Shown here: piece by piece, positions 3,001 through 33,663 of the stretch
Layout of the letters: each line of letters begins with the position of its first letter
Position numbering within the stretch: the first letter of the stretch is position 1
Program-made: the position numbers and the translations under genes
Notes under the pieces: generated by a model
Told to the model about the DNA's origin: nothing
Seen by the model: only the letters and a program-made list of their open reading frames with translations
The model's database searches: none
Assembly: GCF_902167635.1 (NCBI RefSeq)
Contig: NZ_CABHMS010000002.1
Span: 496,001 to 560,000 of the forward strand
Reading direction: 5' to 3'
DNA from: Chitinophaga vietnamensis
GTDB taxonomy: Bacteria; Bacteroidota; Bacteroidia; Chitinophagales; Chitinophagaceae
Length of the DNA: 64,000 bases

Positions 3001-6000
3001 ATATACCGCCTATACGGAACAAAGGTCGGCGCAGCTGCCGGAGCTGCCCGTGCAATACAAGGATATCGCCATCTGGCAACGCCAGTACCTTTCCGGCGAA
3101 GTGCTGGACCGCCAGCTTCAATACTGGAAGCAGCAGCTGGATGATGTAACGCCGCTGCACCTGCTCACGGATTATGTGCGCCCCGCGCTGCAAAGCACAA
3201 AAGGTGCGCACCTGCTCTTTAATATCGATCCGCAGCTCACGGCGCAGTTGCAGCAATTGTCGCTGCAACAGGGCACTACGCTCTTTATGACGCTGCTGGC
3301 GGCTTTCAAGGTATTGCTGCACCGTTACACCGGGCAGGATGATATCGCGGTGGGTTCGCCGATCGCGGGCAGAACGCAACAGGAAGCGGAGGCGCTGATC
3401 GGCTTCTTCGTAAATACCCTGGTGTTGCGCAGTCGTCTCGATGGTAATCCTTCCTTCACTGCCTTCCTGCAACAGGTGAAACATACCACTTTACAGGCCT
3501 ATGAGCACCAGGAAGTGCCTTTTGAAAAAGTGGTGGACCAGGTGGTGACGAGCCGCGAATTGAGCCGCAGCCCGCTGTTTCAGGCTGTATTCGCCTTGCA
3601 GAACACGCCGCGTGCCGAGGGCGCAAGCTTAGGCCAGCTGCAATTGACAGAAGAAGATATTGATCAAACCACCGCTAAAACAGATATCAGCTTTTCGCTG
3701 GAAGAAACGCCGGCAGGCTTGCAGGGTAATGTGGTGTATTGCACGGATCTCTTTCGCCGTGAAACGATTGAACAGTTGCTGCGGCATTTCCGGCAATTGC
3801 TGCAAGCCATTGCAGCCGCGCCCGATGCGGCGATTGGCGCATTACAGTTCCTATCTGCCGAAGATGAGCAACAGTTCCATCAATTCAACGAAAAAGTACC
3901 CGGCTTTGAACTGGATATGCAGGCGCATATCGTGAGCCGCTTCCGGCAGCAGGTACAGGCGCAGCCAGCAGGCATCGCGCTGTGCTATGATAACATTACG
4001 CTCTCTTATCAAACATTGGATGAGCGCTCCAACCAGTTTGCGCATTATCTCCGCAAACTGGGCGTAGAAGGGGAGATGATCGTGCCCATCTGCCTGGACC
4101 GTTCACCGGAAATGATCATTGCGATATTAGGCGTGTTGAAGGCGGGCGGGGCTTACCTGCCCATCGATCCGGCCTATCCGCAGGATCGTATTCAATACAC
4201 TTTGCAGGATAGCGGCGCGCAGTTGTTGATCACCACCACCTCCTGTGAAGCGCAGATCGAATGCCCGTCGCATATACAAGTGATCCGGATAGATACCGGC
4301 GTGTACCTGCAAGAAGAGACAAGCAGCCTGGATGCCGCGCTGGACGGCCATCACCTGGCCTATGTGATCTATACTTCCGGTTCTACCGGCAGGCCCAAGG
4401 GCGTGTTGCTGGAACACCGCGGTATCGTGAACCTGGTACAAGGGCATGTGGATGTGCTGCAGTTAAGGCCCGGCAAGCGTATGCTGCAATTCTCCTCATT
4501 TGGTTTTGACGCCTCCTGCTATGAAATATTCAACACGCTGTTGAGTGGCGGTACTTTGATATTGCCCAAACAGGAGGAACTGATGTCGGTAGATAGTTTT
4601 GAGGAGATGATCAACCGTTACCAGGTGGAAATGGTGGTGCTGCCGCCATCTTACCAGCATGCGATCCGCGAGAAGACGGGCAGCATCCGTACCATGGTAT
4701 CCGCCGGCGAAGCCCTGCATGTAGACGATGCCCGTTACCTGCAGGAGAAGGGTATCCGCCTGCTTAACGGTTACGGACCTACGGAGAATACGATCTGCGC
4801 CACCATCTCTGATAACCCATTGCTACCGCACGCCGTTACCATCGGTCCGTCTATCGCCAATGTGCAGGCTTATATCGTAGACCGTTATAACAACCTGTGC
4901 CCGGTGGGCGTGGCCGGAGAGTTGTGTGTGGGCGGGTATGGCGTAGCGCGCGGTTATCTCAACCGCCCTGATCTTACAAAGGAAAAATTTGTACAAGGTA
5001 TTTTCGATAAAGGCATCTGCTATCGTACCGGCGACCAGGCCCGCTGGCTGCCTGACGGCAACATCGAGTTCCTCGGCAGGATCGACGACCAGGTGAAGAT
5101 CCGCGGCTACCGCATCGAGCCGGGCGAAGTAACCGCTGTGTTGCAACAATGCCCGCTGGTGAATGAAGCCATTGTAGTAGCCCGGAATAACAGTCGCCAC
5201 AAGATGCGCCTCGTGGCCTATGTAGTACCCAAAGGACGCTTCGACCGGGAAGCAGTGGTGAGCTTCCTCAAGGGCCGCCTGCCGGAATACATGCTGCCAT
5301 CGCAGTATGTAGAGATGAGCGCGCTGCCCGTAACTGCCAGCGGCAAGATCGACAAGCGCGCTTTGCCAAGTCCGGACGACCATGTAGTGGGCGCTTATGC
5401 GGCGCCCCGCAACGAAACAGAGCAGGCGCTGGTCGCCATCTGGCAGGAGTTGCTGCGCGTACAAGGGGTAGGCATATACGATAATTTCTTTGAGTTAGGG
5501 GGAGACTCTATCATCACCATACAGCTCGTGAGCCAGGCCCGCAGGCGCGGGTACCTGCTGCATCCGCGCGATATCTTCCTGCACCAGCATATCGCTGCAT
5601 TGGCCGGCGTGGTAACCAGCAGCCGTGAGATACAGTCAGAACAAGGTATGCTGAATGGTGAGGCAGGAATCCTGCCTATCCAGCAGTGGTTCTTTGAACA
5701 GAACTTTGCCGCGCCGCATCATTTCAACCAGGCCGTGTTGCTGAATATCGATAAATCGCTCGATGCCGCGCAACTCAATACCGTGGCGGCTGCGCTGGCA
5801 TCGCGCCACGATGCGCTCCGTTTCCGTTACCGACAGGAAGGCGCACAATGGATACAGGAATATGGCTACCTGCTGCCGGTAGTAGCACAGGAAGAAGCCG
5901 CGACAACAAACGAGATCACCGCCATCTGCGAACGCTGGCAACAGCAGCTGGATATCAACACCGGTGAACTATGGCATTGCGTATTGATCAAAACACCGCT

Positions 6001-8416
6001 GGCAGATGCTTACAATCGTCTGTTCATCGTGGTGCATCACCTCGCGATAGATGGCGTATCATGGAGGATATTGCTGGAAGATATTGCCGCCTTCCTGCCG
6101 GTAGCTGCCGCAGGGCAGGCTTTGCAAACGGCTCCCAAAACCACTTCTTACCGGCAGTGGCAGCAGGCCATCGCGCGCTATGCCACCGATCCGGCTACGC
6201 TGGCGCAGCTGGCATACTGGCAAACTACCGTGAAGGCCTATACGCCATTACCGGGAGCAGCGATCCACGTATTACGTAAAGACACGCAAACACATACAGT
6301 TACCTTGCCCGAGCAGGATACGCGCCTGCTGCTGGGTAAAGCGCAACAGGCATACAACACCGGCATCAACGACTGGCTGCTGGCGGCACTCACGCAAACT
6401 ATCAGCAACTGGAGCGCACAACCGCAGGTGCTCATCACCCTGGAAGGGCATGGCCGGGAAGCCATCGCACCAGACCTGGATACCTCTCAAACTGTTGGCT
6501 GGTTCACCAATATGTACCCGGCGCTGTTATCGGCCGGTAATATCCCGGATATTAAAGAACAGCTGCGGGCCTTGCCTGGCAATGGTTTGGGCTATGGCGC
6601 GCTGCGCTACCTCCATCCTGATGCAGCGGTAAGGGAAAGTTTGCAGTTGCCCGCTATGGACCTGCTATTCAACTACCTCGGCCAGCTCGATAATATTATT
6701 CATACAGGCGTGAACGTTAGTCTGGCCGATGAGCCTACCGGCGAAGCCGTGAGCGGCAACAATGCCTTCGGCAGCAAGCTGGAAGTTACCGCCTCCGTAG
6801 CAGAGGGACAGCTCTATGTATCCTGGACTTACGCCCCGGCGCAATACGATGCCGCTTTGATCGCGCAGCTGGCAGAAAACTACCTGGCCTTCCTGCAGGC
6901 GCAGTTGCAAACAGCGGCAGCACTGGAAGCGCCTGTGCCTACGCCTTCAGACTATGGCCTTGGCGGATTGGTAACGCCATCCACATTGCATGATTTCTTA
7001 TATGCGATGGAAGAAGGGCAAGCCCGCAAGTCCCTGCTGGAAAGCCTTTACGTGGCCAGTCCCTTGCAATACGATATGTGGTCGTCCAGTCAAAGCGCCC
7101 CCGATGCCGGTACCTGGATCATCCAGGTGAGCGCGGATATTCCATCTCTCGATAAAAAAATATTGCAAGAGGCCTGGAATGCCGTAGCTGCTAAACACAG
7201 CATTTTCCGTACTGCCTTCTACCAGCTCAATGATACGCTGGTGCAGGCCGTGTACCGGGAGATCAGCGTGCCGGTGTATGAGCGCGACTACAGTCATCTC
7301 TCCAACGAAGCGGTCAACATCTTCCTGCAAAAAGACAGGAACACGGATTTTGATATGGATACCGCGCCGCTCATGCGCATCACCCTGGTGCAGATGCATG
7401 GCGGCATCACCAAAATGGTGTGGACCGCGCATCATATCATCATGGATGGCTGGTCGATGCCCGTGGTGGTGGACGAATGGATGAAAGCCTATGAAGCGCT
7501 GCTGAAAGGCGACGCCATTGCGGATAGCCGTGACCGTTATGAAGACTATATCCGCTTCATCAACGCTGCCGGCAAAGACGCTGCTGCGGCCTTCTGGCGT
7601 GAGCAGCTGCAAGACGTGAGCGCGCCCATGTGGCTGCCTTTCGTCAACTATCGCGGCGATCGTAACCGCGTACCAGGCGCCTATAACGACGTACGCCTGG
7701 TGCTGGATGAAAGTCTTACCGCCGCCGTGCACCGCTTCGCACAGGAGCAGCACGTTACCGTGAATACCGTGATACAAGGCGTATGGGCAAGCTTACTGTT
7801 TAAATATACCCGCCGCCGCCAGGTAGTATATGGCGTAACGGTATCTACCCGCCCCGCAGAAGTGGAGCAGGTGGAAAGCAGGGTAGGGCCTTATATGAGC
7901 ATTATTCCTTTGAAGGCAGTCATGGCGGTAGCACAGCCGCTGGACCAATGGCTGCGCGACTTGCAGGACCATCACAGCCAGGCGCGCCATCATCCGTATA
8001 TCGGCGCGGCTGACCTGCGCAACTGGACGGGCATGGAAGAAGATCTGTTCGATAGCGTATTATTCTTCGAGAACTATCCGCTCGGCGATGTGACAGAGAA
8101 AGAAAACCCTGTGCTGGACCTGCAACAAGTGCAGATGCATGAGCACAACAATTACTTGTTGTCGGTATTTGTAGGCATCGGCGAAGAGATGGTAGTGCGC
8201 TTCAATTACAACAGCACGCTGCTCAGTGATACCTGCGCCAATATTGTCAGTCATCATTTCAGGGCGGTACTGTTGCAGATGCTCAGGAACCCGCAAACGC
8301 CTGCAACGCGCATCCGGTTAACTACGCCGGCACATCTGAAAAAAGCATTCAAACACACCGGTATCGGGCAGCGCAAGCGCATCCCGGCATCCAAAGTTCA
8401 AAACCACAAATCATAG
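1..8416 (+). CDS. Non-ribosomal peptide synthetase, 3' part (C*-A-T-C-A-T-E-C)
   Basis: Cytoplasmic assembly-line enzyme. The frame is open at the left edge, so this is the C-terminal ~2800 residues of a longer protein. Domains seen, numbered from the first start-like codon at position 8: partial condensation (to ~270); adenylation 1 (~290-760; FTSGTTGRPKG, IYGPTE); carrier 1 (GGHSL near 804); condensation (HHIATDG near 979); adenylation 2 (~1310-1800; YTSGSTGRPKG, GYGPTE); carrier 2 (GGDSI near 1832); epimerization (HHLAIDG near 2010, NYLGQLDN); terminal condensation (HHIIMDG near 2475). GGDS in carrier 2 and the epimerase predict a D-residue from module 2. Specificity residues aligned by eye are D-A-L-F-Y-G-I-V-F for A1 and D-A-Y-V-V-A-G-I-C for A2. 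A2 resembles the Phe-type pattern; A1 is unassigned. No thioesterase domain follows the last condensation domain. The exporter gene begins 2 nt after the stop. Confidence 0.96.
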   Translation, partial: NALLAGDEGRRHRDYWLQQLGGNRPVLELPADFSRPRVMTYKGDYISTCLPLAVQQKLQQYAAANQLSVYMVLMAAVKTLLYRYTGQQDLIVGTPVAGREHASLANQIGFYVNTLAVRTQIPENISFDQFVKDGIRHRLLEAYQHQAYPFDQLIDDLSLERDMSRSPLFNVMVVMQNNSATRDALLEMNQLRATPFSNQAPQSKFDLTIDFEESKDGLVLGIEYYADLFARPRIVRMLGHLANIITAIADDPGIMLEEIDYLSEDEQREIASFNGQVTPIPLHLTVHGVFEQVARARPDAMALEDEQHAYTYAQLHAYTDQLATLLQQRGVSHESVVAVVMTRSADFVIGMLATLKAGAAYMPVESNTPVERIAQLLQQTNAAIVLTNDARIRQHFEQTIYLPEVELPLAAIQSFANADSLAYIMFTSGTTGRPKGVMITHRSIVSLLTNPRNVYITAEDRMLQTGSLSFDAATLEIWGALLNGATIYMMELQRLLDPASMAEVLREKAITTAFFTTSWLNQLIDHDPQLFAPMRTIYSGGEQLSVSHVRRLLAQLPALKFYNIYGPTEITVFVTKNAVHEDAEVTATIGYPVENGQVFIVDRHGRPVPKGIPGEALLGGEGLSRGYINDEARTLQQFIRRGTQRLYRSGDQARWLEDGRIEFTGRIDEQVKIRGYRVEPEEITNVLLSHPDVKEAIVIVHKQADGNKLLAAYYTLTGTATREAIRQYLEQQLPAYMVPASLIQLEVMPLNANGKTDRSALPEPELSGADYVPARNETEQQLVGIWERLLGVSRVGIYDNFFALGGHSLLATRLVSAIREEMQAVATVKDVFLHQTIAAFAPLLAGAAKATLPPLSRHHIDKAPLSFAQERLWFIDQLEGSVPYHMPVLLRLKGALDTSALAHALHALVERHEVLRTVLKEEGGKAYQQIISADGWQLDTSTDINIDPYIHQPFDLSKDFMLRARLIALQEDEHQLLIVMHHIATDGWSMGIIIRELTELYTAYTEQRSAQLPELPVQYKDIAIWQRQYLSGEVLDRQLQYWKQQLDDVTPLHLLTDYVRPALQSTKGAHLLFNIDPQLTAQLQQLSLQQGTTLFMTLLAAFKVLLHRYTGQDDIAVGSPIAGRTQQEAEALIGFFVNTLVLRSRLDGNPSFTAFLQQVKHTTLQAYEHQEVPFEKVVDQVVTSRELSRSPLFQAVFALQNTPRAEGASLGQLQLTEEDIDQTTAKTDISFSLEETPAGLQGNVVYCTDLFRRETIEQLLRHFRQLLQAIAAAPDAAIGALQFLSAEDEQQFHQFNEKVPGFELDMQAHIVSRFRQQVQAQPAGIALCYDNITLSYQTLDERSNQFAHYLRKLGVEGEMIVPICLDRSPEMIIAILGVLKAGGAYLPIDPAYPQDRIQYTLQDSGAQLLITTTSCEAQIECPSHIQVIRIDTGVYLQEETSSLDAALDGHHLAYVIYTSGSTGRPKGVLLEHRGIVNLVQGHVDVLQLRPGKRMLQFSSFGFDASCYEIFNTLLSGGTLILPKQEELMSVDSFEEMINRYQVEMVVLPPSYQHAIREKTGSIRTMVSAGEALHVDDARYLQEKGIRLLNGYGPTENTICATISDNPLLPHAVTIGPSIANVQAYIVDRYNNLCPVGVAGELCVGGYGVARGYLNRPDLTKEKFVQGIFDKGICYRTGDQARWLPDGNIEFLGRIDDQVKIRGYRIEPGEVTAVLQQCPLVNEAIVVARNNSRHKMRLVAYVVPKGRFDREAVVSFLKGRLPEYMLPSQYVEMSALPVTASGKIDKRALPSPDDHVVGAYAAPRNETEQALVAIWQELLRVQGVGIYDNFFELGGDSIITIQLVSQARRRGYLLHPRDIFLHQHIAALAGVVTSSREIQSEQGMLNGEAGILPIQQWFFEQNFAAPHHFNQAVLLNIDKSLDAAQLNTVAAALASRHDALRFRYRQEGAQWIQEYGYLLPVVAQEEAATTNEITAICERWQQQLDINTGELWHCVLIKTPLADAYNRLFIVVHHLAIDGVSWRILLEDIAAFLPVAAAGQALQTAPKTTSYRQWQQAIARYATDPATLAQLAYWQTTVKAYTPLPGAAIHVLRKDTQTHTVTLPEQDTRLLLGKAQQAYNTGINDWLLAALTQTISNWSAQPQVLITLEGHGREAIAPDLDTSQTVGWFTNMYPALLSAGNIPDIKEQLRALPGNGLGYGALRYLHPDAAVRESLQLPAMDLLFNYLGQLDNIIHTGVNVSLADEPTGEAVSGNNAFGSKLEVTASVAEGQLYVSWTYAPAQYDAALIAQLAENYLAFLQAQLQTAAALEAPVPTPSDYGLGGLVTPSTLHDFLYAMEEGQARKSLLESLYVASPLQYDMWSSSQSAPDAGTWIIQVSADIPSLDKKILQEAWNAVAAKHSIFRTAFYQLNDTLVQAVYREISVPVYERDYSHLSNEAVNIFLQKDRNTDFDMDTAPLMRITLVQMHGGITKMVWTAHHIIMDGWSMPVVVDEWMKAYEALLKGDAIADSRDRYEDYIRFINAAGKDAAAAFWREQLQDVSAPMWLPFVNYRGDRNRVPGAYNDVRLVLDESLTAAVHRFAQEQHVTVNTVIQGVWASLLFKYTRRRQVVYGVTVSTRPAEVEQVESRVGPYMSIIPLKAVMAVAQPLDQWLRDLQDHHSQARHHPYIGAADLRNWTGMEEDLFDSVLFFENYPLGDVTEKENPVLDLQQVQMHEHNNYLLSVFVGIGEEMVVRFNYNSTLLSDTCANIVSHHFRAVLLQMLRNPQTPATRIRLTTPAHLKKAFKHTGIGQRKRIPASKVQNHKS

Positions 8417-8418
8417 CC

Positions 8419-10071
8419 ATGGCACTGTTAAAACTGCTTCAGAAAAAATCGAAAGCGTTCTTTTGGCTGCTGGCCCTGCTGGGGCTGATCAACAGCATCT
8501 GGGGAAGCACCCTGCTGCTGTTGATCAACAACAAGATCACGAATACGCCTTTGCCCTTTGTAGGGCAGTACGACTGGCAGGTATACTGCGGACTGATCGT
8601 GCTGTCGTTCGTGACCGCCCGTTTTTTCCAGTCGTACATGATACGCCTTACTTATGATCTCGGCAATGATCTCGGGCTGTCTATCTTCGATAAACTGCGT
8701 TTCTCCAATTACGAAGAATACCTCAAGCTCGGCGATGAAAAAGTTCGTACAGCCGTTGCCGATGTCACCACTTTGCAGCGTTTTCCGCAAGCCTTCATCG
8801 AAACCTTCAACGCATTTGTGATGGTAGTGATCGGCGTGTTGTACCTCTATTACATCAACCCCGGCGGCGCCGCGCTGATCACGGTGATATTAGGTCTGCT
8901 CGCAGGCGTGTACTATTACCGCAACCTGGCTGTGCACCGGGATATGAGCACTGTGCGCGACCTCGCTAACGTATACCAGCAGAACGTGAACGACTTCCTC
9001 CGCGGCTTCCGCGAGATCAAGATGAGCACGCGCCGCAGCGATATCATCTACCATGAACATATTACCGTAAACAGAGGCCGGGCCAAAGACCTGACCGTGA
9101 AAACGCTGATCCGCCACATGGGCAATGAGCTGATGGGCAGTTACACCTGGTACCTGATGATCGGTATTATCCTCTTCCTGCTGCCCGCGCTGTTGCACAC
9201 CACTGGCGGCGTGAACAGCAATTTCATTGTTACGCTGCTATATCTCATGGGACCGATGAGTATCATCATCACGGAGATACGCGAGTTTACGCTGATGCAC
9301 ATCGCGGTGAAACGGCTCGAAGAATTTGATACGGTGCTCAGCGCTTCTGAGGGCATTGCATTAGGGCATGGCCAAAGTGCCGATGCTGGCCCATTCCGCA
9401 GCATCCGCTTCGAAAATGTGACCTATGAATATTATGACGAGATCAGGTCCGAAACTTTCCGTTTGCAACCGCTCAACCTGGAAATCAAAGCAGGAGAGAG
9501 CATCTTCATCACGGGTGGCAATGGCAGCGGCAAGAGCACTTTTGTGCATCTGCTTACCGGTTTGTATATGCCCCGCTCCGGTCATATCTATTTCAATGAT
9601 GAATTGATCACGCCGGATAACTATCCCTGGTTCAGGGATCAGATGGTATCTATCTATACCGATCATTGCCTCTTCTCCGAGAACTACGACAATTTCCCTT
9701 TGCATCGCGATAATGAGCAGCTGATGCACCTGTTGGACAAGATGCGCCTCACCGATATCGTGACCTTCAACGAAGGAAAGAACGTGATCAAAGCTACGTT
9801 GTCCAAAGGCCAGCAGAAGCGCCTGGCGCTGATCTACGCCTTGCTCGAAGAAAAAGAGATCATTGTACTGGATGAGTGGGCCGCGGAGCAGGATCCTGTA
9901 TTCCGTGCCTATTTCTATAAAGTGCTGGTGCCGGAGATGAAGATCATGGGCAAGACGGTGATCGCGGTAACCCATGACGACGCTTATTTCGATTACGCAG
10001 AACGCGTGCTGCGCTTCGATTATGGCAAGATACAGAGCGACACGCGGCAGCCGGAATTAATTGTTAGTTAA
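8419..10071 (+). CDS. Cyclic-peptide-type ABC exporter (fused permease-ATPase)
   Basis: Inner-membrane exporter predicted to move the peptide product or an intermediate out of the cytoplasm. The N-terminal ~320 residues hold about six membrane segments (the first is LLALLGLINSIWGSTLLLL). The C-terminal half is an ABC ATPase with Walker A GGNGSGKST near residue 368, signature LSKGQQKRL, and Walker B ending IIVLDEW followed by AAEQDP. The (A)xQDP variant after Walker B is characteristic of the SyrD/PvdE cyclic-peptide and siderophore transporter family. Length of 550 aa is usual for that family. It lies 2 nt after the NRPS stop and 12 nt before the mutase gene, so it is almost certainly cotranscribed. 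The substrate is inferred from context only. Confidence 0.92.
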   Translation: MALLKLLQKKSKAFFWLLALLGLINSIWGSTLLLLINNKITNTPLPFVGQYDWQVYCGLIVLSFVTARFFQSYMIRLTYDLGNDLGLSIFDKLRFSNYEEYLKLGDEKVRTAVADVTTLQRFPQAFIETFNAFVMVVIGVLYLYYINPGGAALITVILGLLAGVYYYRNLAVHRDMSTVRDLANVYQQNVNDFLRGFREIKMSTRRSDIIYHEHITVNRGRAKDLTVKTLIRHMGNELMGSYTWYLMIGIILFLLPALLHTTGGVNSNFIVTLLYLMGPMSIIITEIREFTLMHIAVKRLEEFDTVLSASEGIALGHGQSADAGPFRSIRFENVTYEYYDEIRSETFRLQPLNLEIKAGESIFITGGNGSGKSTFVHLLTGLYMPRSGHIYFNDELITPDNYPWFRDQMVSIYTDHCLFSENYDNFPLHRDNEQLMHLLDKMRLTDIVTFNEGKNVIKATLSKGQQKRLALIYALLEEKEIIVLDEWAAEQDPVFRAYFYKVLVPEMKIMGKTVIAVTHDDAYFDYAERVLRFDYGKIQSDTRQPELIVS

Positions 10072-10083
10072 CAAGCCCGTTAT

Positions 10084-11382
10084 ATGCAGCAGAGTACAGC
10101 CTATTTTCATCAATATGTAAAAGAGCATGCGCGGCAACAGCAGCTGGTGGTGCAGCCGCGCATGGGCTTCAGCGACCGGTCGAAGATGCGCTTTGGCCTC
10201 AGTGAGGTGAAGCGCCTGGATGCGCCTACCATCGGCACGATCACGCTGGACAGCTTCACGCGCAGCGGCGATTTTCACAGCGCTGCCAGGGCCGTAGCGG
10301 AGGGCATGCAGCTCAATGGTTACCCGATCGTAAGTTATCCCCGCGAAGAGAATATGCAGCTCATCGAAGGCTTGCGCGAGCCGGGCTTTCCCGTGCAGAT
10401 ACGCCATGGTAGCCCTTTGCCCGTGGAGATATTCAAAGCCACCATCAACGCCGGCATCGATGCCATTGAAGGCGGGCCGATATCTTATTGTTTCCCTTAT
10501 GGCCGCATTCCGCTCGCACGCAGCATGGAAGCCTGGCGCACCTGTTGCCAGCTCTTCGGCGCCGCCAGCGATGATCCCTGGCATATCGAAAGTTTCGGCG
10601 GTTGTATGATGGGGCAATTGTGCCCACCCGCAATCCTGATCGCCATCACCATCGCAGAAGCGATCTTCATGATACGCAATGGCGTGAAGTCTTATTCACT
10701 GAGCCTGGCGCAAGGTACGCACACCTCGCAGGATGTGGCCGCGCTGCATGCATTACGGCAGCTGGGCCTCAAATACCTCGGGCCGCAGAGCGACTGGCAC
10801 ATCGTATTCTATACGTTCATGGGCAAGTTCCCGCAGTCGTACCATGGCGCGAGAGCGTTGATAGAAGAGAGCGCCCGCGCCGCTGTGAAGGGAGGCGCAG
10901 AAAGATTGATCGTGAAGACGGTGAAAGAGGCGCACCAGATCCCTTTGATAGAAGATAATCTCAATTCGCTGGCCTGGTGCCATCAGGCCGCCACGGCGGA
11001 AAGGCAGCGCAGCGGGCTGCCGGAGGGCGTGGCTGCCTGGACCGCGCAGATATACGAAGAGGCCGACTTCCTCATCGACTTGTTGCTGAACCTCGACAGC
11101 GACCTGGAAAAAAGCATGGCGAAAGCCTTCAAGCGGGGCTATTGGGATGTGCCGTATTGCCTGCATCCGGATAACCGCCGCCTCACGGGCGCGCAGCTGG
11201 ACGAAGCCGGATTTATTTACTGGTCGGACCCCGGCAAGATGCCCTTCACAGGCCATATCCGCAACAATGCCGTGCGACGGAAGAAGCAATTATCCTCCGG
11301 GGAGTTGTTGCACATGCTGTCTTTCAATCAGCAAAAGTATGATGGTCTTTATATCCCGGAAGAACAATTATCTACACCATAA
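10084..11382 (+). CDS. glmE: Methylaspartate (glutamate) mutase, epsilon/E subunit
   Basis: Catalytic TIM-barrel subunit of adenosylcobalamin-dependent glutamate mutase, which interconverts L-glutamate and (2S,3S)-3-methylaspartate. Family hallmarks are MGFSDRSKMRFGL near the N-terminus, IRHGSPLPVEI, the strongly conserved AIEGGPISYCFPYGR, and ESFGGCMMGQLCPP. It has 432 residues against about 480 in the clostridial enzyme, with a shorter N-terminus. The small B12-binding subunit gene follows 27 nt downstream. Inside an NRPS operon, as in lipopeptide clusters that contain GlmA/GlmB, the enzyme most likely supplies 3-methylaspartate as a peptide building block rather than acting in glutamate fermentation. 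That role is inference; the family call is secure. Confidence 0.95.
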   Translation: MQQSTAYFHQYVKEHARQQQLVVQPRMGFSDRSKMRFGLSEVKRLDAPTIGTITLDSFTRSGDFHSAARAVAEGMQLNGYPIVSYPREENMQLIEGLREPGFPVQIRHGSPLPVEIFKATINAGIDAIEGGPISYCFPYGRIPLARSMEAWRTCCQLFGAASDDPWHIESFGGCMMGQLCPPAILIAITIAEAIFMIRNGVKSYSLSLAQGTHTSQDVAALHALRQLGLKYLGPQSDWHIVFYTFMGKFPQSYHGARALIEESARAAVKGGAERLIVKTVKEAHQIPLIEDNLNSLAWCHQAATAERQRSGLPEGVAAWTAQIYEEADFLIDLLLNLDSDLEKSMAKAFKRGYWDVPYCLHPDNRRLTGAQLDEAGFIYWSDPGKMPFTGHIRNNAVRRKKQLSSGELLHMLSFNQQKYDGLYIPEEQLSTP

Positions 11383-11409
11383 ATCTTTACCCTGTTAAAA
11401 ATAGATCAC

Positions 11410-11841
11410 ATGAAACCTATCGCATTACTCACCACGATCCCTTCGGATTCGCACAACTGGAACCTGGTATATATCCAGCTCTTTTTGCAGGAGAATGGCT
11501 TTGAGGTGGTGAACCTCGGCCCCAGCGTGCCTTACGACCTGTTGTTATCTGCCTGTGTGCAGCATCAGCCTGACCTGTTGATCGTATCAACTATTAACGG
11601 TCACGGCTATATTGAAGGCAAGGAATTGATACGCCAGGTGCGCTCGCTGGACAGTATGAAAGAGAAACCCGTTTTCATTGGCGGCAAGCTGAGTACGGAT
11701 GTTAGTATGTCGTATCTTTATGCGGTGGAGTTGGAAGAAGCCGGTTATAACAAGGCTTATTGCAACGACCAGGATATGGAAGATTTCACCCGTCGGTTGC
11801 AGGTGATCCTGCGGCAGTCGCCCGTTAGTAAACAAGTATAA
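11410..11841 (+). CDS. glmS: Methylaspartate (glutamate) mutase, sigma/S subunit
   Basis: Small cobalamin-binding Rossmann-like subunit that carries the B12 cofactor to the E subunit. The DxH motif is present as D13-S-H15, so His15 is the expected lower cobalt ligand. STING (61-65 region) takes the place of the SxL element, and FIGGKLS gives the GG element of the B12 fold. The usual DxHxxG reads D-S-H-N-W-N here, so the glycine is replaced by asparagine. Length of 143 aa is close to the family norm (~137). It sits between glmE and the type II thioesterase gene (3 nt gap). The symbol means glutamate mutase S, not glucosamine-6-phosphate synthase. Confidence 0.93.
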   Translation: MKPIALLTTIPSDSHNWNLVYIQLFLQENGFEVVNLGPSVPYDLLLSACVQHQPDLLIVSTINGHGYIEGKELIRQVRSLDSMKEKPVFIGGKLSTDVSMSYLYAVELEEAGYNKAYCNDQDMEDFTRRLQVILRQSPVSKQV

Positions 11842-11844
11842 CAG

Positions 11845-12549
11845 ATGAAGGTAAACCTGATCACGCTGCCGTATGCAGGCGGTAACAAGTACGCTTACAA
11901 TGCATTGAAACCCTTGCTGCACGGCCATATTTCGATGGCGCCGCTGGAGCTGCCAGGCAGAGGCCAGCGCATGGCCCTGCCCTTGCTGGACGATATCCGG
12001 CAGATGGCGGCCGACCTGGAACAACAGATACAGCCTCATATACAACAGGAATATATACTCTATGGCCATTCGATGGGCGGCATGCTGGGCAACCTGCTGC
12101 TGCACCGCCTGAAGGCCGCCGGCAGCAAGCTGCCGCTACGTTTCATCATCACCGGATGTGGCAGCCCGAAAACAACGCACCTGCGCACTATCCGGCATGT
12201 GCTGCCCGACAAAGCGTTCCGCGAAGAGCTGCGCCAGTTGGGAGGTTTGCCCGATGAGATATTGGAGAATGATGACCTGATGGAATTTTTTCTTCCCATT
12301 ATCCGGGAAGATATGAAAGCATTGGAGTTGTATCAGTACCAGCCACTGGGAAAATATGAAGTGCCCCTTACCGTGATCAGCGGTACCGAAGAGCCTATCA
12401 CGGACGAGATGCTGGCCGGCTGGGCAGATGAATCGGTATATGCGCCTGAGATCAGGCATATGAAAGGTAATCACTTTTTCATCCTCGACCATTTTAAAGC
12501 ATTGGCGGAGATGATCAATCATGAAACGGAGAAAGTTGTTTTTGGATGA
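11845..12549 (+). CDS. Type II thioesterase (editing/release)
   Basis: Alpha/beta hydrolase of the GrsT/RifR type found beside NRPS genes. It usually hydrolyses misprimed or stalled acyl groups from carrier-protein phosphopantetheine arms. Seen: the N-terminal LPYAGG oxyanion element, the nucleophile elbow GHSMGG with Ser76, and a C-terminal GNHFFIL with the catalytic His; an acidic residue lies before it in the EEPITDE region. At 234 aa it has the normal length. The stop overlaps the next gene's start as ATGA. Since the NRPS visible here lacks its own thioesterase domain, this protein could also take part in product release, which is inference. Confidence 0.93.
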   Translation: MKVNLITLPYAGGNKYAYNALKPLLHGHISMAPLELPGRGQRMALPLLDDIRQMAADLEQQIQPHIQQEYILYGHSMGGMLGNLLLHRLKAAGSKLPLRFIITGCGSPKTTHLRTIRHVLPDKAFREELRQLGGLPDEILENDDLMEFFLPIIREDMKALELYQYQPLGKYEVPLTVISGTEEPITDEMLAGWADESVYAPEIRHMKGNHFFILDHFKALAEMINHETEKVVFG

Positions 12550-13238
12550 TCACGTATTCTTATTTTCTGTATAATCGTCCGCTGGATGAACGTTTGTATA
12601 ACGCGCTGCTGCAGTGCGTACCGGAGCATATGCGTACGGCCATCGTGAAGTGCCGCCGCTGGGAAGACCGCCAGAACCGGCTGTTTGCCCGCCTGCTGCT
12701 GCGCGACCTGCTCTTTGCAGAAGGTTATGCCCCCGACTCACTCGAACGGCTATACGCCAATGAGTATGGCAAACTGTTCATCGACGACCGCGTGGATTTC
12801 AACCTCTCACATTCCGGTAACCTGGTGATGGTGGCATTGTCTACCTGCGGGCGTATCGGCATCGATGTAGAGCGGAAGGACGGTTTACAGGCGCAGGATA
12901 TCGCCACTGCCTTGCGCAGTGATGAGCTGGAGATGCTCCGGCAGCCGGTATCCCAGGAGGCCGTGTATCATCTCTGGACAAAAAAAGAGAGCCTTGTAAA
13001 GGCAAGAGGGCAGGGGCTTTCCCTCGATGTGAAAGCCATCTACCTGTATGCCGACCGTGGCGTGCTGAAAACCGGCAACTGCCATGAAACCTGGTACTAT
13101 CACCCGTTACAAATACATACCGATTACATCGCGGTGCTCTGTTCCGAGGCCGCCAACCCGATCCTGCGCTATGCCCCCGCAGAAGACCTGATAGACCGCG
13201 CCATCCGGCATTCGGGCATCGATATTTCGGAAACTTGA
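12546..13238 (+). CDS. 4'-phosphopantetheinyl transferase, Sfp type
   Basis: Activates the carrier domains of the NRPS by transferring phosphopantetheine from CoA to the serine in GGHS/GGDS. Family motifs are all visible: NLSHSGN, GIDVER (Mg-binding acidic residues) and LWTKKESLVKARGQGL, the WxxKEAxxKxxG signature. Length of 230 aa matches Sfp. The ATG overlaps the thioesterase stop (ATGA), which indicates translational coupling. Its presence makes the cluster self-sufficient for carrier activation. Confidence 0.95.
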   Translation: MITYSYFLYNRPLDERLYNALLQCVPEHMRTAIVKCRRWEDRQNRLFARLLLRDLLFAEGYAPDSLERLYANEYGKLFIDDRVDFNLSHSGNLVMVALSTCGRIGIDVERKDGLQAQDIATALRSDELEMLRQPVSQEAVYHLWTKKESLVKARGQGLSLDVKAIYLYADRGVLKTGNCHETWYYHPLQIHTDYIAVLCSEAANPILRYAPAEDLIDRAIRHSGIDISET

Positions 13239-15869: not shown

Positions 15870-16516
15870 TCAGATCGTTACAGGCAAAGGGAATCTATCC
15901 TTTATTTCATCCAGGTTTCTTTTGACAACGGTAATTAATTCTTCTGCCAGTTCCCATACCTGGGTGCTACCGGTTTCTGGAAAGTAGCCGATCGCTTTAT
16001 AGTTGTTTTTCGCGTTACGGATAGCTGTTTCGATAACTGCCGGATGGTAGTCGGAGTTAAAGCCACCTTTGATCACACGTGGAATATGTGTTTTCCAGCT
16101 ATTGCATTTGTCAATGTTATGAATCAGGGGTAGCGTATTGTATGCGTGGAAATACAACCAGACTTCGAAGCATGGGTTACTTTGAACGACACGCCAGTGC
16201 GTACGTGTGGCACAGGCTGTTCTGATACTATTGAGATGGGTTCTCCATCTGTCTGTATCGATGATAAACCAAACTTTATCTCTTTCGGCTGTTGCTGCGA
16301 GTTCCTCTTCTTTTTTTCTTGCTATATCGATTAGCCTGTCTGGAGAGCCGCCACCATCTTCACTGCTCACTGGAATGACTTTTACGCGTGGGGATATGCC
16401 ATGAAAAAAATTAAAATAATGAGGTTCTCTATTTTGACCTTCGCAAACTATTATCAAATAAAATGCATCCCGGTAGGGGTTCTTTTTTCGTAAGAGAATT
16501 TACTTGGTTTTGGCAT
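15870..16516 (-). CDS. rloB: RloB-family TOPRIM-like protein, 5' end frameshifted
   Basis: Predicted metal-dependent nuclease partner of the upstream AAA ATPase. The main frame (16457 to 15870) begins at IIVCEG; the glutamate of VCEGxxxEPHYF and the aspartates of FIIDTD fit the E...DxD arrangement of TOPRIM nucleases. No ordinary start exists in this frame: upstream it runs directly into the TAA of the ATPase gene. A normal start, ATG at 16516 with GGGAG about 5 nt upstream, gives MPKPSKFSYEK and then meets a run of six A (16488-16483). A -1 slip, or one missing A, joins it perfectly to KNPYRDAFYLIIVCEG. The joined product would be ~215 aa, normal for RloB. This is therefore a programmed frameshift, a recent inactivation or a homopolymer sequencing error. 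The family call is good; the expression state is unknown. Confidence 0.8.
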
Positions 16517-17861
16517 ATTTCTCCCAGTTTAAATCGACAAAATTTCCCAGAAAGGGTATTGCACCGTATCTGCCGTTTAAGTATCCTTTTCGAATGTCGA
16601 TAGTGTGATGTTCTTTAAATTCGCTCAGTGGGTATAGCTCTGTGGCGCCATGATTGTTTTTTTCGGCAAACCATATTTCATCAGGGCGAAAAATTTCCTG
16701 GTCCAGCAGGTTAGATTCATGAGTAGAAAATATTAATTGCCCCTTTGTTGCTGTATCGAGCGAAAATTTCTTAATTATTTCTTTGATCAGTAGCGGATGG
16801 ATGCTTCTTTCTATCTCATCAATCAGAAATGTTTTAGGTTTGTTGACAATTGAATATAGCGCTGGCAGATACTCCATTAATCTTCTTGTACCATCTGATT
16901 CTTCAGAGAACATGAATCTTGCAGTTCCTTTATCTACATTGTGAGAGAACCATATGCTCTTTGCAACAGGTTTATTATCTTCCATTACAAAGATTACTTC
17001 TTCATATGCATTCCTTCGGGAAGCTATCCGCTCGGGGTTAGCTTTGAGGTTCGCGATGAATCTATTAGCCTCCTGGCGATCGTCCTCGCCAAAATATTCC
17101 TCGATGGGTACTGTTTCAATATGTATATGCTCAATGCCGGTATTGAATGACCTCAGTATATCAGTGGCGAATTTGAAGAAGGTTGCATCTTTTTCAAGTC
17201 GTAAACAAAGACCATGGGGGCGGGCCAATGGAGATATCATTTCAATGCCGTTTTCAAACCAGTTGGCTGCATTTTTATGATGCCCGAAAGCTTCATTTTG
17301 TCTACTTTTCATATGAAATAATACAAGCTTGTTGCGCCCGAGTATTTCATTCTTCAGAAAGGAGGAAAAGAAAGCAGTTTCTTTATTGTCTTCCACTTCC
17401 GGGGAAAATTGAAGTTCCAGGTTGTTCCCATCGACAGTGTCTCTTCGCGTAAATAGTATTTTGTCATCTTTGGTACCCAGGCCGCTGATGAATAATTCTT
17501 CCTCAATAATGATACCCTGGTTAATGGTAAGGCCATAGTAGTAAGGTGTTTCATCTTTGAAAAACTCTATCCCGATATAAACATCTTTGGTGCGACCTTT
17601 TTTATCAAATTTAAAGGTCTCCGTTATAAACTCTATTGGCATTTCACCATCTTTAACAAAATCTCTTAAAAGAGATAATGTATTAATCAGGTTGCTCTTT
17701 CCTGCCCCATTAGCGCCATAGATCACGCTTAACTTCAGTAATTCTACATTGTCGTGCGTTGAAACGTGATGAGCTAAACGTGAGAAGCGACCTGGAAGTA
17801 AGTTGAACTCCGTAAGGTCATTGAAAGAGTAAAGGTTTTTGACAAGCAATCGAATAATCAT
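16500..17861 (-). CDS. AAA/ABC-like ATPase, RloA-type partner of RloB
   Basis: Predicted ATPase sensor subunit of a two-gene defence-like module. It is 453 aa with N-terminal MIIRLLVKNLYSFND, Walker A GANGAGKS at residues 49-56, a long insertion between the nucleotide-binding halves, Walker B FLIDEIERSIHPLL (D348, E349), and an H-switch FSTHES near 381. This is the AAA_15/AAA_21 organisation of RloA, AriA (PARIS) and OLD-like ATPases. The downstream rloB start overlaps its last codons. Base composition is lower in GC than the flanking genes, consistent with horizontal acquisition. A palindrome lies 2 nt upstream of the start codon. Confidence 0.85.
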   Translation of the reverse strand: MIIRLLVKNLYSFNDLTEFNLLPGRFSRLAHHVSTHDNVELLKLSVIYGANGAGKSNLINTLSLLRDFVKDGEMPIEFITETFKFDKKGRTKDVYIGIEFFKDETPYYYGLTINQGIIIEEELFISGLGTKDDKILFTRRDTVDGNNLELQFSPEVEDNKETAFFSSFLKNEILGRNKLVLFHMKSRQNEAFGHHKNAANWFENGIEMISPLARPHGLCLRLEKDATFFKFATDILRSFNTGIEHIHIETVPIEEYFGEDDRQEANRFIANLKANPERIASRRNAYEEVIFVMEDNKPVAKSIWFSHNVDKGTARFMFSEESDGTRRLMEYLPALYSIVNKPKTFLIDEIERSIHPLLIKEIIKKFSLDTATKGQLIFSTHESNLLDQEIFRPDEIWFAEKNNHGATELYPLSEFKEHHTIDIRKGYLNGRYGAIPFLGNFVDLNWEKYAKTK

Positions 17862-23331: not shown

Positions 23332-26300
23332 ATGAAAAATAGCATATCGGTCTGGCTGAAGCGGGTATTGATTATTGCAGTCATTCATTGTACGGGCATT
23401 GAGCTTTCTCTCGGTCAATCTGACCAGTTAAGTACGATTATTCCGCCATCGCCACGCTCAAGAGAGTTTGAAAAATTCATCAATTATGAGGTTTCACTAT
23501 ACAACGGGTTACCTCAGATTAATGTCAATTTTTATACTATTGAACTAGGCGGTATAAAGATACCCATAGGTATATCTTATCACGCCTCTGGTATAAAATA
23601 TGGCCAAACGAGCGGCGATGTGGGCATTGGCTGGGCCTTGGACCCTGGGTTCCGTGTGTCGAGGACAGTGCATGGCCGGCTGGATGAGGCTTACGACATG
23701 CCAGATATGAATAATTTTCCCGGCGGGCAGACGATAAGCAGCTACCTGAGTGGGTTTTCATCTTCGTACGACCGTGACCGGTACCTCGCGAGGTACATGC
23801 TATTACAACCAAATGGAGAGAAACCTGCCGTTTCTGCATCCTCAAATGACTACCTGGATGGGCAATATGATCAATTCACTATTGGCTTGCCAGGTAACAG
23901 TGGCAATTTCATTATCACGAACCGCTTGAGCCGCACTGTTACTATGCTGGATAATTCAGCGTTGCAAAAGATCAATTATTCAACCGGGGATGTTGGTATT
24001 ACGGAATTTAATGTGACCGATGGAAATGGAATACAGTATAGATTTGGTGTTTCAGATGCTAATAATGAAAACTCACAGGTATATATCAATGGTGCATACC
24101 GAAAGTATAATTCTGCCTGGTTATTGGGCAAGATTACCACGCTCTTCAATGATTCCATTAATTTCCAATACCAATCATTTACTGAATCAAGTGAAGGGAT
24201 GCCGTCTTATAGCAGGACAATTCTGGAGGGCTATGGCCCAACTTACTGTTCCCCGTTGTGTTACCCCTCGTCGGACAATAATCAAAGGGGACTTGAGCAA
24301 CCTGCTACAATCAAGTATTATGATACGAAAATATTATCCGGCATCACTACTCCGAATGAGCTGGTAACGCTAACCCGGAACGCTAATGGCACAGTAAGTA
24401 CTATCACGGTTACTAATAAGAAGGGAGCACTATTGAAAAAGGTGTCCTTCTTTTACAGTCTCTCAGGATCTTCTAATTTTCTGGATTCCCTTCAAGTGGC
24501 TGGCGCCGACAACGTGGCGGTTGAAAGGTATAACTTTGACTATACATCAAAAAATGTACGTTTCCCCAACTACGATTGCTTTGGATATGGAATAAACAAC
24601 CCTGGCGGAGGATATAGTTACGCGAATTATTTTGGCAAGTTTGACTATACACAAGTAGGCAAGGATGTCTACACTACTAGTCCCGGTGATCCTGGCGCAT
24701 CATCTGATGTATGTAACGGGAATGCGTTTCCTCAATCATATCCTCAATCGATCACATTTGACGGTACCGATAAAAGAAGCGTGCTCCCATTGGACGCTGG
24801 CATGTTGAAACGGATTACCTATCCTACGGGAGGGACTCGAACATTCAGCTACGAGTACAACCAATACAAAGTTTTGGTGAATGGTATTGCTTACGCCAGA
24901 ACTGGCGGCGGTTTCAGGATAGCCAGTATTAGCAGCGATGATAAAGTGAAAGGTACTACCTTAACCAGAAACTATTACTATGGAGATGGCCAGCGTACTT
25001 TCGATCCCACAGATCCCCAGCTGGCAGTGAAAGAAAAAGCAGCATTGGCCTTGTTTACATGCCCCGGCGCTACCGTGAAGAAATTACGGCAGGTTACACA
25101 GGCTTCATCATTAGATGAAGAGTTGTCGGAGGCCATAGTGCAGGGCCAGGAGGGTTGGTACAGCGATGTTACAGAAAACTATGGCGCGGGGAAGATTACA
25201 TATAAGTTCAATATTCCCAATACAACTGCGGGTTTAAACCGCTACATAAACAATGGTACTTCTCTGGCGAATCCATCCTATTGTTTGCAGACGTATAATC
25301 CCTGGAACAAACCTTATTTAGCAGAGAAAACGATTTATGAAACCAAACCTGTTACGGGTGACGTGATCAGGCAGAAGGAGAGCTATGAATACTATATACC
25401 TGCTCCCAACCCGGTATCTGAGGTATTTACCGGTTTGAAAGTGTCTCCTTACGGACTTGCGTACAAAGTAGATGTACAGAACCTTTCGACGCCAACATAT
25501 GATTTGTACGCAGCCGGAATACAATCTGTGTTTAATTATGCTACATATAATCTGACTAAAGGGGATGTACTGTTGAAGAAGAAGATAACTACTGATTATG
25601 ATACCCAGACAGGCAATACTACCAGTACAGTTGCTGAATACAATTATACCTATGCTAACCTGATGGCTAGTGAGAAAGCGACTAATAGTAAAGGAGAGGT
25701 GATCTTCACCAGTTATAAATATCCGCTCAATTATGCGGGTATAACCGCTACAGACGCTATTTCGGCAGGTTTGAAGAATATGCAGAATGTTAATGTTGTC
25801 AATCCCGTAATTGAAAAAAGTATCTACCGCGCAAATGTAGATATGACCAATAAGCGGTTGATGTCTTCTTTGTTCTTTACTTATAAGTCTATGGTCCCTG
25901 TGGCTGATAAAGTCTTCAGAACAGCGTTGGCGGCGCCCGTTACCAGTTTTGTTGAATCCAGTGTTCAGAGTGGCGCGGTAATAAAAGACAACAGTTATCT
26001 TGAAGATATCAGCTTTGATCTATACGATGCTAAGGGGAATATTTTACAGCGTTCCAGAACTAATGATGCCAAAGAAGTTTATTTCTGGGGGTACAATAAC
26101 AATTATCCAGTGGCTAAAATTACGGGAAGTGACTATAATGCGGCGAAACAATATATCAGTCAGATCCTGCTTGATAGTGCCGCCAATTATACAGATGCAG
26201 CTGTTCAAGCCGAGCTGGGCAAGCTACGTACCAACCTGGGCGGGGCATTGGTATCAACGTACACCTATCGTCCGCTGGTGGGTATGAGTACCGCAGCCGA

Positions 26301-27144
26301 TCCTTCCGGTAAGCTCTCGTACTATGATTATGATGCTTACGGAAGGCTGCAAACGGTGCGTGATAAAGATACCAGGATTGTAAGCCAGTTTGACTACAAA
26401 TATCAGACTCCTATTACGCCTATATGGGGCAATAATTATAAGTTCCAAACGTTTACCCGCAACAATTGTACTGTTGGTGGAGGTACACCTGTGGATTACG
26501 CCGTACCTGCCGGAACTTATTATTCGGGTATCAGCCAGGCAGATGCCGACCAGATGGCGCAGAATGATATCAATGCTAACGGTCAGGCCTATGCGAACAA
26601 GTATGGTTGCTGTACTTACTTCAAGAATGCCGGTGCCAGTCAGTGGTTCATACGCAGCAACTGCACCGCAGATTCAATCGGGGGATGGATACTCTATAGC
26701 GTGCCGGCAGGAACTTACACTTCTGTTATTAGTCAAGCAGATGCCGATCAAAAAGCCACAAACGAAATCAATACTAATGGACAGGCTTATGCAAACCAAT
26801 ATAGTAAATGCCAGCCACCGGTATATGCAAAATTGCGTTTAGAGAACATTACTCAAACGCCTACGACTACAACGGGTGATGTGGTTGTACGGTTCTACAG
26901 TGATGATGCCTGTACGACGCCTGTTTCATTAGTAGGTAGCGTGATAGTAAATATCAAGATTACAAAGGTCACCACACCTGATAATACTACTACCATTACT
27001 AATGAAAGCTCCACCTGCAATGGCTCCTACCAGGTGCTTAAATCAGCCTTCCTTCTTTCAGAACGGCAATCACAAACACCGGGAGCCCCTGCCACCAATT
27101 ATACTTTTACACTGCAAAGTGGTTATGGATACACCGTGCGTTAA
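23332..27144 (+). CDS. Large secreted RHS-type protein with two DUF5977 modules
   Basis: A 1270-aa exported protein with an N-terminal signal region ending near IELSLGQS. The body has the pattern of RHS/YD-type beta-rich proteins of Bacteroidota: FEKFINYEVSLYNGLPQINV near the start, many YxYD/YYG turns, and DYDAYGRLQTVRDKD near 1000. Two homologous ~55-residue modules follow (about 1038-1095 and 1105-1160), each with VPAGTY, ISQADADQ, and NGQAYANxY, which match DUF5977. A short beta-rich tail (from ~1165) ends the protein. No toxin tip is recognised. It lies directly upstream of a second RHS protein (19 nt gap) and probably acts with it at the cell surface. Confidence 0.8.
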   Translation: MKNSISVWLKRVLIIAVIHCTGIELSLGQSDQLSTIIPPSPRSREFEKFINYEVSLYNGLPQINVNFYTIELGGIKIPIGISYHASGIKYGQTSGDVGIGWALDPGFRVSRTVHGRLDEAYDMPDMNNFPGGQTISSYLSGFSSSYDRDRYLARYMLLQPNGEKPAVSASSNDYLDGQYDQFTIGLPGNSGNFIITNRLSRTVTMLDNSALQKINYSTGDVGITEFNVTDGNGIQYRFGVSDANNENSQVYINGAYRKYNSAWLLGKITTLFNDSINFQYQSFTESSEGMPSYSRTILEGYGPTYCSPLCYPSSDNNQRGLEQPATIKYYDTKILSGITTPNELVTLTRNANGTVSTITVTNKKGALLKKVSFFYSLSGSSNFLDSLQVAGADNVAVERYNFDYTSKNVRFPNYDCFGYGINNPGGGYSYANYFGKFDYTQVGKDVYTTSPGDPGASSDVCNGNAFPQSYPQSITFDGTDKRSVLPLDAGMLKRITYPTGGTRTFSYEYNQYKVLVNGIAYARTGGGFRIASISSDDKVKGTTLTRNYYYGDGQRTFDPTDPQLAVKEKAALALFTCPGATVKKLRQVTQASSLDEELSEAIVQGQEGWYSDVTENYGAGKITYKFNIPNTTAGLNRYINNGTSLANPSYCLQTYNPWNKPYLAEKTIYETKPVTGDVIRQKESYEYYIPAPNPVSEVFTGLKVSPYGLAYKVDVQNLSTPTYDLYAAGIQSVFNYATYNLTKGDVLLKKKITTDYDTQTGNTTSTVAEYNYTYANLMASEKATNSKGEVIFTSYKYPLNYAGITATDAISAGLKNMQNVNVVNPVIEKSIYRANVDMTNKRLMSSLFFTYKSMVPVADKVFRTALAAPVTSFVESSVQSGAVIKDNSYLEDISFDLYDAKGNILQRSRTNDAKEVYFWGYNNNYPVAKITGSDYNAAKQYISQILLDSAANYTDAAVQAELGKLRTNLGGALVSTYTYRPLVGMSTAADPSGKLSYYDYDAYGRLQTVRDKDTRIVSQFDYKYQTPITPIWGNNYKFQTFTRNNCTVGGGTPVDYAVPAGTYYSGISQADADQMAQNDINANGQAYANKYGCCTYFKNAGASQWFIRSNCTADSIGGWILYSVPAGTYTSVISQADADQKATNEINTNGQAYANQYSKCQPPVYAKLRLENITQTPTTTTGDVVVRFYSDDACTTPVSLVGSVIVNIKITKVTTPDNTTTITNESSTCNGSYQVLKSAFLLSERQSQTPGAPATNYTFTLQSGYGYTVR

Positions 27145-32521: not shown

Positions 32522-33358
32522 TTAATTGGAGTTTCTTGATTTTTGCAACTCCGTTTTCCATTCGCAAGGCGTCATGTTCTTCAAAGATTCGTGGGGTCTT
32601 CTCTGGTTATATTCTTCGATCCAGACATCGGTTAATTCCCTTACCTGGTACAAGTCCTCAAAGATATAAGCATCCAGGACGGCTTCTCTGTAAAGACGAT
32701 TAAATCGTTCGATATAACCATTCTGCATTGGTCGGCCTGGTTGAATGTATTGTAGCCTGATATCATGCTGATGGCACCACTGTTCAAAGTACGCGGAAGT
32801 GAACTCCGGGCCATTATCAGTTCTTATCGCGGCTGGTTTCCCTCGGTATTCAATAATTTTTTCCAATACCCGCACAATTCGGCATGAGGATAGTGAAGTA
32901 TCGATTTCTATACCCAATACCTCCCGGGAGCCATCATCTATCACGTTAAATGTCCTGAAGCGTTTGTTTCCGGTCAGGCTATCACTCATGAAATCCATAC
33001 TCCAGATGACATTAACATTGGTTTGCCGCTGCAATGGTTGTTTGATACGAGCTGGCACTCTCCGTTTGAGCTTCTTCCTCTTATTCAGTTTAAGCAGCCT
33101 GTATACCCGATATACTCGTTTATGATTCCAGTGGTGGCCGGCACGCCTCAAATAGGCAAATAGCTTGCGAAAGCCGTAGGAAGTATGCTTAAAAGCAAGG
33201 TCCTGAAGGGCATCAATCAGTACCTGGTCATTTCTACGACTACGATAGTAAAACTTCGAACGGGGAAAGGAAACTATTCGACAGGCCCTGCTCACAGAAA
33301 CACCCTGATCTGCGACCAGTTCTTCTGCTACTTGTCTTTTTGTGGAAGGGCCCAGCCT
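32522..33358 (-). CDS. IS3-family transposase OrfB (DDE integrase domain)
   Basis: The catalytic half of the transposase. The integrase core shows the DDE residues in WSMDFMSDSL, AIRTDNGPEFTSAYFE and NGYIERFNRLYREAVL, with the N-terminal HTH_21-like region RRAGHHWNHKRVYRVYRLL. The frame from a GTG at 33295 is open upstream to the frameshift site: after a -1 slip it reads KKRLGPSTKRQVAEELVADQ and joins OrfA. The OrfAB fusion is the expected active enzyme. Its full length suggests the element is functional. Confidence 0.92.
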   Translation of the reverse strand, partial: RLGPSTKRQVAEELVADQGVSVSRACRIVSFPRSKFYYRSRRNDQVLIDALQDLAFKHTSYGFRKLFAYLRRAGHHWNHKRVYRVYRLLKLNKRKKLKRRVPARIKQPLQRQTNVNVIWSMDFMSDSLTGNKRFRTFNVIDDGSREVLGIEIDTSLSSCRIVRVLEKIIEYRGKPAAIRTDNGPEFTSAYFEQWCHQHDIRLQYIQPGRPMQNGYIERFNRLYREAVLDAYIFEDLYQVRELTDVWIEEYNQRRPHESLKNMTPCEWKTELQKSRNSN

Positions 33359-33618
33359 TTTTTTGTGAATAGATCCTTCAGTATCTGATTGTCAAGGGAC
33401 AGGTCAGCATACATTCTTTTGAGCCTGGAATTTTCTTCCTCCAGGTCTTTGAGGCGCTTCACATCTGAAGCCTCCATGCCTCCATACTTGCTTTTCCAGT
33501 TATAGAAAGTGGCTTCAGAAATGCCGTGTTCACGACAAATGTCCTTTGTGGCAAGCCCGTTCTCCTGCTGCTTCAAAATAGACACAATCTGGGTTTCTGT
33601 GAATCTGGTCTTTTTCAT
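33328..33618 (-). CDS. IS3-family transposase OrfA (helix-turn-helix)
   Basis: A 96-aa DNA-binding half of the transposase (HTH_Tnp_1): KTRFTETQIVSILKQQENG, then DICREHGISEATFYNWKSKY, followed by a leucine-zipper-like segment (LEEENSRLKRMYADLSLDNQ). Near its end, a run of seven A on the coding strand (33364-33358) followed by G is the -1 frameshift site that feeds ribosomes into orfB. Confidence 0.92.
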   Translation of the reverse strand: MKKTRFTETQIVSILKQQENGLATKDICREHGISEATFYNWKSKYGGMEASDVKRLKDLEEENSRLKRMYADLSLDNQILKDLFTKKGWALPQKDK

Positions 33619-33663
33619 GATGGTAGTTCAGTTTAAATTTAACCTTTTTTATCTAAGTTTAAA

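Follow-up and report, generated by a model that had tools for sequence, protein, structure and literature searches.

A net one-base frame change probably inactivates rloB, the effector gene of a predicted AbiL-type defence operon in Chitinophaga vietnamensis

AbiL is an abortive infection system of Lactococcus that pairs the ATPase AbiLi with the Toprim effector AbiLii and belongs to the RloA/RloB family. A second system, PARIS, consists of the ATPase AriA and the Toprim tRNase AriB, of which AriA is described as keeping AriB in an inactive state up to its release, which a phage protein triggers (PMC12409363), and AriB as a DUF4435 protein (PMC9122126). AAA antitoxins paired with Toprim toxins have also been reported, in an account in which AbiLii is termed a toxic effector (PMC10440598).

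A gene pair of this kind lies on the reverse strand of the window, the whole stretch of 64,000 nucleotides analysed here (Table 1). The gene directly 5' of the RloB frame matches PF13304 with 106.5 bits (Pfam) and AbiLi with 264.7 bits (PADLOC), and its product carries Walker A and Walker B type motifs within invariant columns of alignment A2. The RloB frame, the only RloB match in its own genome, matches PF13707 from residue 16 onwards with 94.7 bits (cut-off 31.5; Pfam) and AbiLii with an E-value of 4.8e-24 (PADLOC). As AbiLi and AbiLii are the best PADLOC profiles for the ATPase and for RloB, respectively, the locus is a predicted phage-defence operon of the AbiL type (AbiLi/AbiLii corresponding to RloA/RloB). 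The start codon that an AbiL effector has in its own frame is missing from the window rloB.

The conserved rloB ATG at 16516 reads MPKPSKFSYEKRTPTGMHFI up to a TGA at 16456-16454 that heads a row of three stops (TGATAATAG), confirming the initial annotation, which had described a start codon whose frame runs to a nearby stop and an RloB frame that begins only after the ATPase stop codon and without ATG. The latter frame is open from 16499, immediately after the rloA TAA (16502-16500) and in the same frame as rloA, down to its own stop at 15872-15870, and no in-frame ATG was found near its start. With 57 A/T runs of at least six bases in the 64-kb window, the A6 run is ordinary. The GGGAG noted upstream of the ATG is present, but it encodes Trp-Glu of RloA and is not kept throughout the four nearest orthologues, which have GGGAG in one case, GGGAA in two and GGGAT in one.

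Table 1. Features of the rloA-rloB locus, the slip run used for comparison and the RloB lesions of the genus census
Feature	Window position or locus	Strand	Description
rloA (AbiLi-like)	16500..17861	(-)	453-aa AAA_21 ATPase, full length, open
RloB (AbiLii-like) main frame	15870..16499	(-)	209 codons, PF13707, no ATG at start
Short open frame from conserved rloB ATG	16454..16516	(-)	20 codons, ends at TGA 16456-16454
A6 run	16483..16488	(-)	frame diverges here from the orthologues; G at 16482
TTG overlapping TGA, RloB frame	16455..16457	(-)	possible restart codon, residue 15, first predicted strand
A7 slip run, element called IS3 in the initial annotation	33358..33364	(-)	canonical phase; comparison
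Census lesion	window		frame change at A6
Census lesions	G407, G455		A8 frame changes
Census lesion	G405		frame change near position 75
Census lesions	G456, G441		in-frame deletions
Census lesion	G354		deletion and frame change
Census lesions	G433, G441		stubs
Census lesion	third G441 copy		A-run indel

Elsewhere, the window contains biosynthetic genes at 8-13235 (+), which encode a 2802-aa protein with condensation, AMP-binding and carrier domains, an ABC transporter, a methylaspartate mutase E chain homologue, a thioesterase and a phosphopantetheinyl transferase; this content suggests a nonribosomal peptide and, because of the mutase homologue, one with a methylated acidic residue. A 1270-aa protein at 23332-27141 (+) has DUF5977 as its sole Pfam match at E 1e-10, with two stretches passing.

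We compared the site with its counterparts in 79 genomes of the genus, the own genome included. The nearest RloB matches were L035 (62%), L036 (57%), L037 (56%) and L038 (56% over a part), the last of which carries an internal deletion; their loci were refetched as L113, L111, L112 and L126, respectively. In all four, rloB starts at the homologous ATG, 14 nt inside the rloA 3' end. L111, L112 and L113 read in frame via Y-(E/A)-K-K to IIVCEG, and L126 reads in frame into the same strand as IIVCEG, ahead of its deletion. The A run itself varies, with seven A in L111, five in L113 and none in L112 and L126, all of them in frame. A frame change at the window's codon was found in none of the other loci examined, and the net one-base difference from the relatives means that, within this sample, the change is apparently private to the window. 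The initial annotation had named orthologues uniformly in frame and lacking an A run as the finding that would turn the break into an error or a private mutation, and this is largely what the comparison yielded: four of four are in frame and two of four have no A run.

A homopolymer error of sequencing or assembly, with rloB in frame in the cell, would account for a one-base change within an A run and for the good preservation of the remaining RloB. The same assembly, however, contains 64 SusD genes that are all open (440-643 codons each, 101,898 nt in total, leaving out one short remnant with a stop), so that indels appear to be rare in it, which favours a real mutation. The run is also just six bases long, and RloB breaks recur in other genomes, while the roughly twofold longer RloA is at none of the loci examined broken beside an intact RloB. 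We therefore consider an error unlikely. The window RloB is conserved at 17 of 17 invariant columns and at 33 of the 35 well-conserved ones, with no further lesion, so that either the break is recent or the gene still yields some protein; such retention is as expected for a very young break and equally for a gene that is still expressed.

The reading that we favour, with a probability of about 0.7, is an AbiL-type operon in which a private net one-base frame change at the A run in codons 10-12 of rloB silences RloB. Ribosomes starting at the normal, rloA-overlapping ATG would stop after 20 codons, leaving RloB absent or nearly so and the ATPase RloA whole, and the loss would be tolerated or favoured, with RloB as a costly effector that RloA restrains. 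Among the three options put forward by the initial annotation, inactivation is thus best supported and error less likely, while a programmed -1 frameshift finds no support. We infer three things: the mutation is genuine and not an artefact of assembly, it abolishes RloB function, and this loss was tolerated or favoured. The frame change is probably inactivating, in a gene of a known defence kind.

The programmed option, by which a regulated -1 ribosomal frameshift at AAAAAAG would limit the dose of RloB, draws on the position of the A run at the very point of the frame change and on a following frame that leads straight into RloB. A slippery heptamer has the form X XXY YYZ in the zero frame, but the zero frame at rloB is GAA AAA AGA; a tandem -1 slip would put the AGA-reading tRNA on AAG, and because A6-G is out of phase in this way the A-site tRNA could not re-pair. 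IS3-family elements, whose programmed -1 frameshift joins orfA and orfB, had been invoked as the model, and they share with rloB a frame change of -1 that falls on a run of A. In the element to which the initial annotation gave the family name IS3 (window about 32522-33620, (-)), the A7 is read ACA AAA AAA GGC, which is the canonical phase, whereas at rloB the run has the wrong phase and lacks conservation, and the proposal that rloB slips by the IS3 mechanism is not sustained. RNA downstream of the A6 is not unusually stable when folded without pseudoknots (z -0.80, 36 of 200 shuffles as stable), a weak argument since the IS3 stretch, folded likewise, is not unusually stable either (z -1.30, 20 of 200 shuffles as stable). 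Programmed frameshift criteria as set out in the GeneTack survey require a conserved site (PMC3711429), and conservation in homologues is not seen at rloB. The nearest orthologues are in frame without any slip, and two other loci with early frame changes, L151 and L154, have them within the first 13 codons yet at other codons than the window, one in the same direction and one in the opposite. With the four nearest orthologues in frame, the heptamer in the wrong phase and the site not conserved, we regard regulated frameshifting as highly improbable.

Transcriptional slippage at rloB was considered and rejected: its six A fall short of the eight to nine associated with slippage, given that selection against slippage-prone runs has been described as evident at about nine A and productive slippage suggested at eight A in some organisms (PMC1088944). 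The locus resembles the singleton frame-shifted genes and pseudogenes of GeneTack, which also have a frame change without a conserved site and which the survey, where it deals with them, ascribes to indel mutation or sequencing error (PMC3711429). Unlike these singletons, rloB has an intact partner gene and many homologues that are broken at other places.

A break this early need not be null. Restart at the TTG (16457) after the TGA (16456) would give a low dose of RloB lacking 14 residues of predicted coil. The AlphaFold model of RloB (mean pLDDT 73.4, five sequences) places the first strand at residues 15-20 and renders residues 1-14 as coil of low confidence, so that restart could yield a nearly whole protein; the Pfam match begins only at residue 16, the conserved RloB residues are kept, and the stop and the putative restart codon overlap as TTGA. 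As a control for this overlap, the 47 intact homologues were read one base later: in 11 of them a main-frame start codon lies no more than 4 nt from the shifted-frame stop, and the TGA/TTG overlap alone is therefore no evidence. The missing stretch, moreover, includes the partly conserved residues K-x-P-x-R-D-A, and L154 has no such start codon nearby. That early breaks (the window, L151 and L154; three of 64 loci) form a special class is suggestive at most, and restart as the explanation of the window locus is improbable.

Slipped-strand phase variation at the A run, turning RloB on and off, would have in its favour that eight of 12 frame changes lie at A/T runs of at least five bases (judged by eye) and that the rloAB copies of L166 and L168 (G440 and G441) differ by one A-run indel. 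These two are identical over the 2.2 kb of rloAB except for the single indel, as a result of which one of them has a broken RloB, and over 3.6 kb they show four mismatches and the same single gap. The run in the window is just six A, however, the A run is not conserved among orthologues, the L166/L168 indel lies at another place, sites vary from copy to copy, and the remaining lesions (deletions, stops, stubs) are of a kind that could not switch back. Phase variation is accordingly very unlikely.

The probable silencing of the window rloB is set in a wider pattern of RloB decay. We classed 78 stretches around RloA/RloB matches together with the window by profile and frame. Among these 79, 47 have an intact, 18 a broken and three a lost RloB beside full-length RloA; left out were five without RloA (L127, L130, L131, L132, L159), three cut by the contig end (L162, L178, L185), two RloA fragments without RloB (L173, L186) and one locus (L187) with an intact RloB next to an RloA cut off by the start of its contig. 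L188 was dropped from the broken class because it had been fetched for its stop, which leaves 67 loci at which RloA is full length and the contig long enough; 47 of these have an intact RloB, 17 have a broken one and three have lost it. The 17 broken genes comprise 12 frame changes, two in-frame deletions, two in-frame stops and one truncation. From one of the underlying searches, mainly rows above about 90 bits and some fragments (L161, L162, L165 and L170) were taken, and sister copies were counted apart, so that the sample does not give an unbiased rate. L126 and L128 have large in-frame internal deletions of RloB with both ends kept and RloA intact, and small remnant RloB proteins may still be made from them.

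A cleaner count is provided by a census of the 79 genomes anchored on RloA. This census scored up to 21 candidates per genome, against up to seven and four in two other searches, and some copies may have escaped it. It comprises at least 27 full-length RloA of the clade (24 rows scoring 420 bits or more and three matched in two pieces), of which 26 could be evaluated; among the matches listed, RloB is intact beside 16 of these and broken or deleted beside 10 (Table 1), and loss of RloB is therefore a recurrent fate. The copy cut by a contig end, in G440, corresponds over two contigs to the G441 deletion locus, with a match of about 99%. No locus examined has a broken RloA beside an intact RloB, even though RloA is roughly double the length; an RloA fragment with no RloB occurs in two sister genomes. 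For the matches listed, a sign test of 10 to 0 gives p 0.002, or about 1e-5 when weighted by gene length. Among matched E. coli records, 16 of 16 name both genes, going by feature names irrespective of pseudogene flags, and frequent RloB breakage may thus not hold elsewhere. The frame-change site is ordinary as such. Of more interest is the recurrent effector loss next to a whole ATPase, which also cautions against taking rloA by itself as a sign that a genome of this genus is defended.

From this pattern we infer the recurrent loss of a costly effector that is held in check by its ATPase. A stricter version would make RloA the obligatory guard of RloB and let the early rloB breaks (the window, L151 and L154) attenuate the effector through restart instead of abolishing it. 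Loss of RloA with a working RloB would then not be tolerated, so that operons die only through the effector; we consider this combination improbable. If RloA-RloB operons are lost mainly via RloB, the ATPase must act in an antitoxin-like manner. In PARIS, deletion of either ariA or ariB has been described as non-toxic, arguing against such a role there (PMC9122126). Such a role has been reported, however, for AAA-Toprim pairs (PMC10440598). One-sided decay would fit a costly effector under RloA control.

The locus shares with PARIS the two-gene layout of an ATPase and a putative Toprim-type effector, and the RloA profile matches AriA weakly (26.9 bits). Identity with PARIS was rejected, as PF13707 is the sole Pfam match of the effector at E 0.001, and DUF4435 (PF14491) does not match. 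With AbiL it has in common the best profiles, AbiLi and AbiLii, and the combination of AAA_21 and PF13707 in an overlapping gene pair; it differs from AbiL in its effector frame, which is broken at the window locus.
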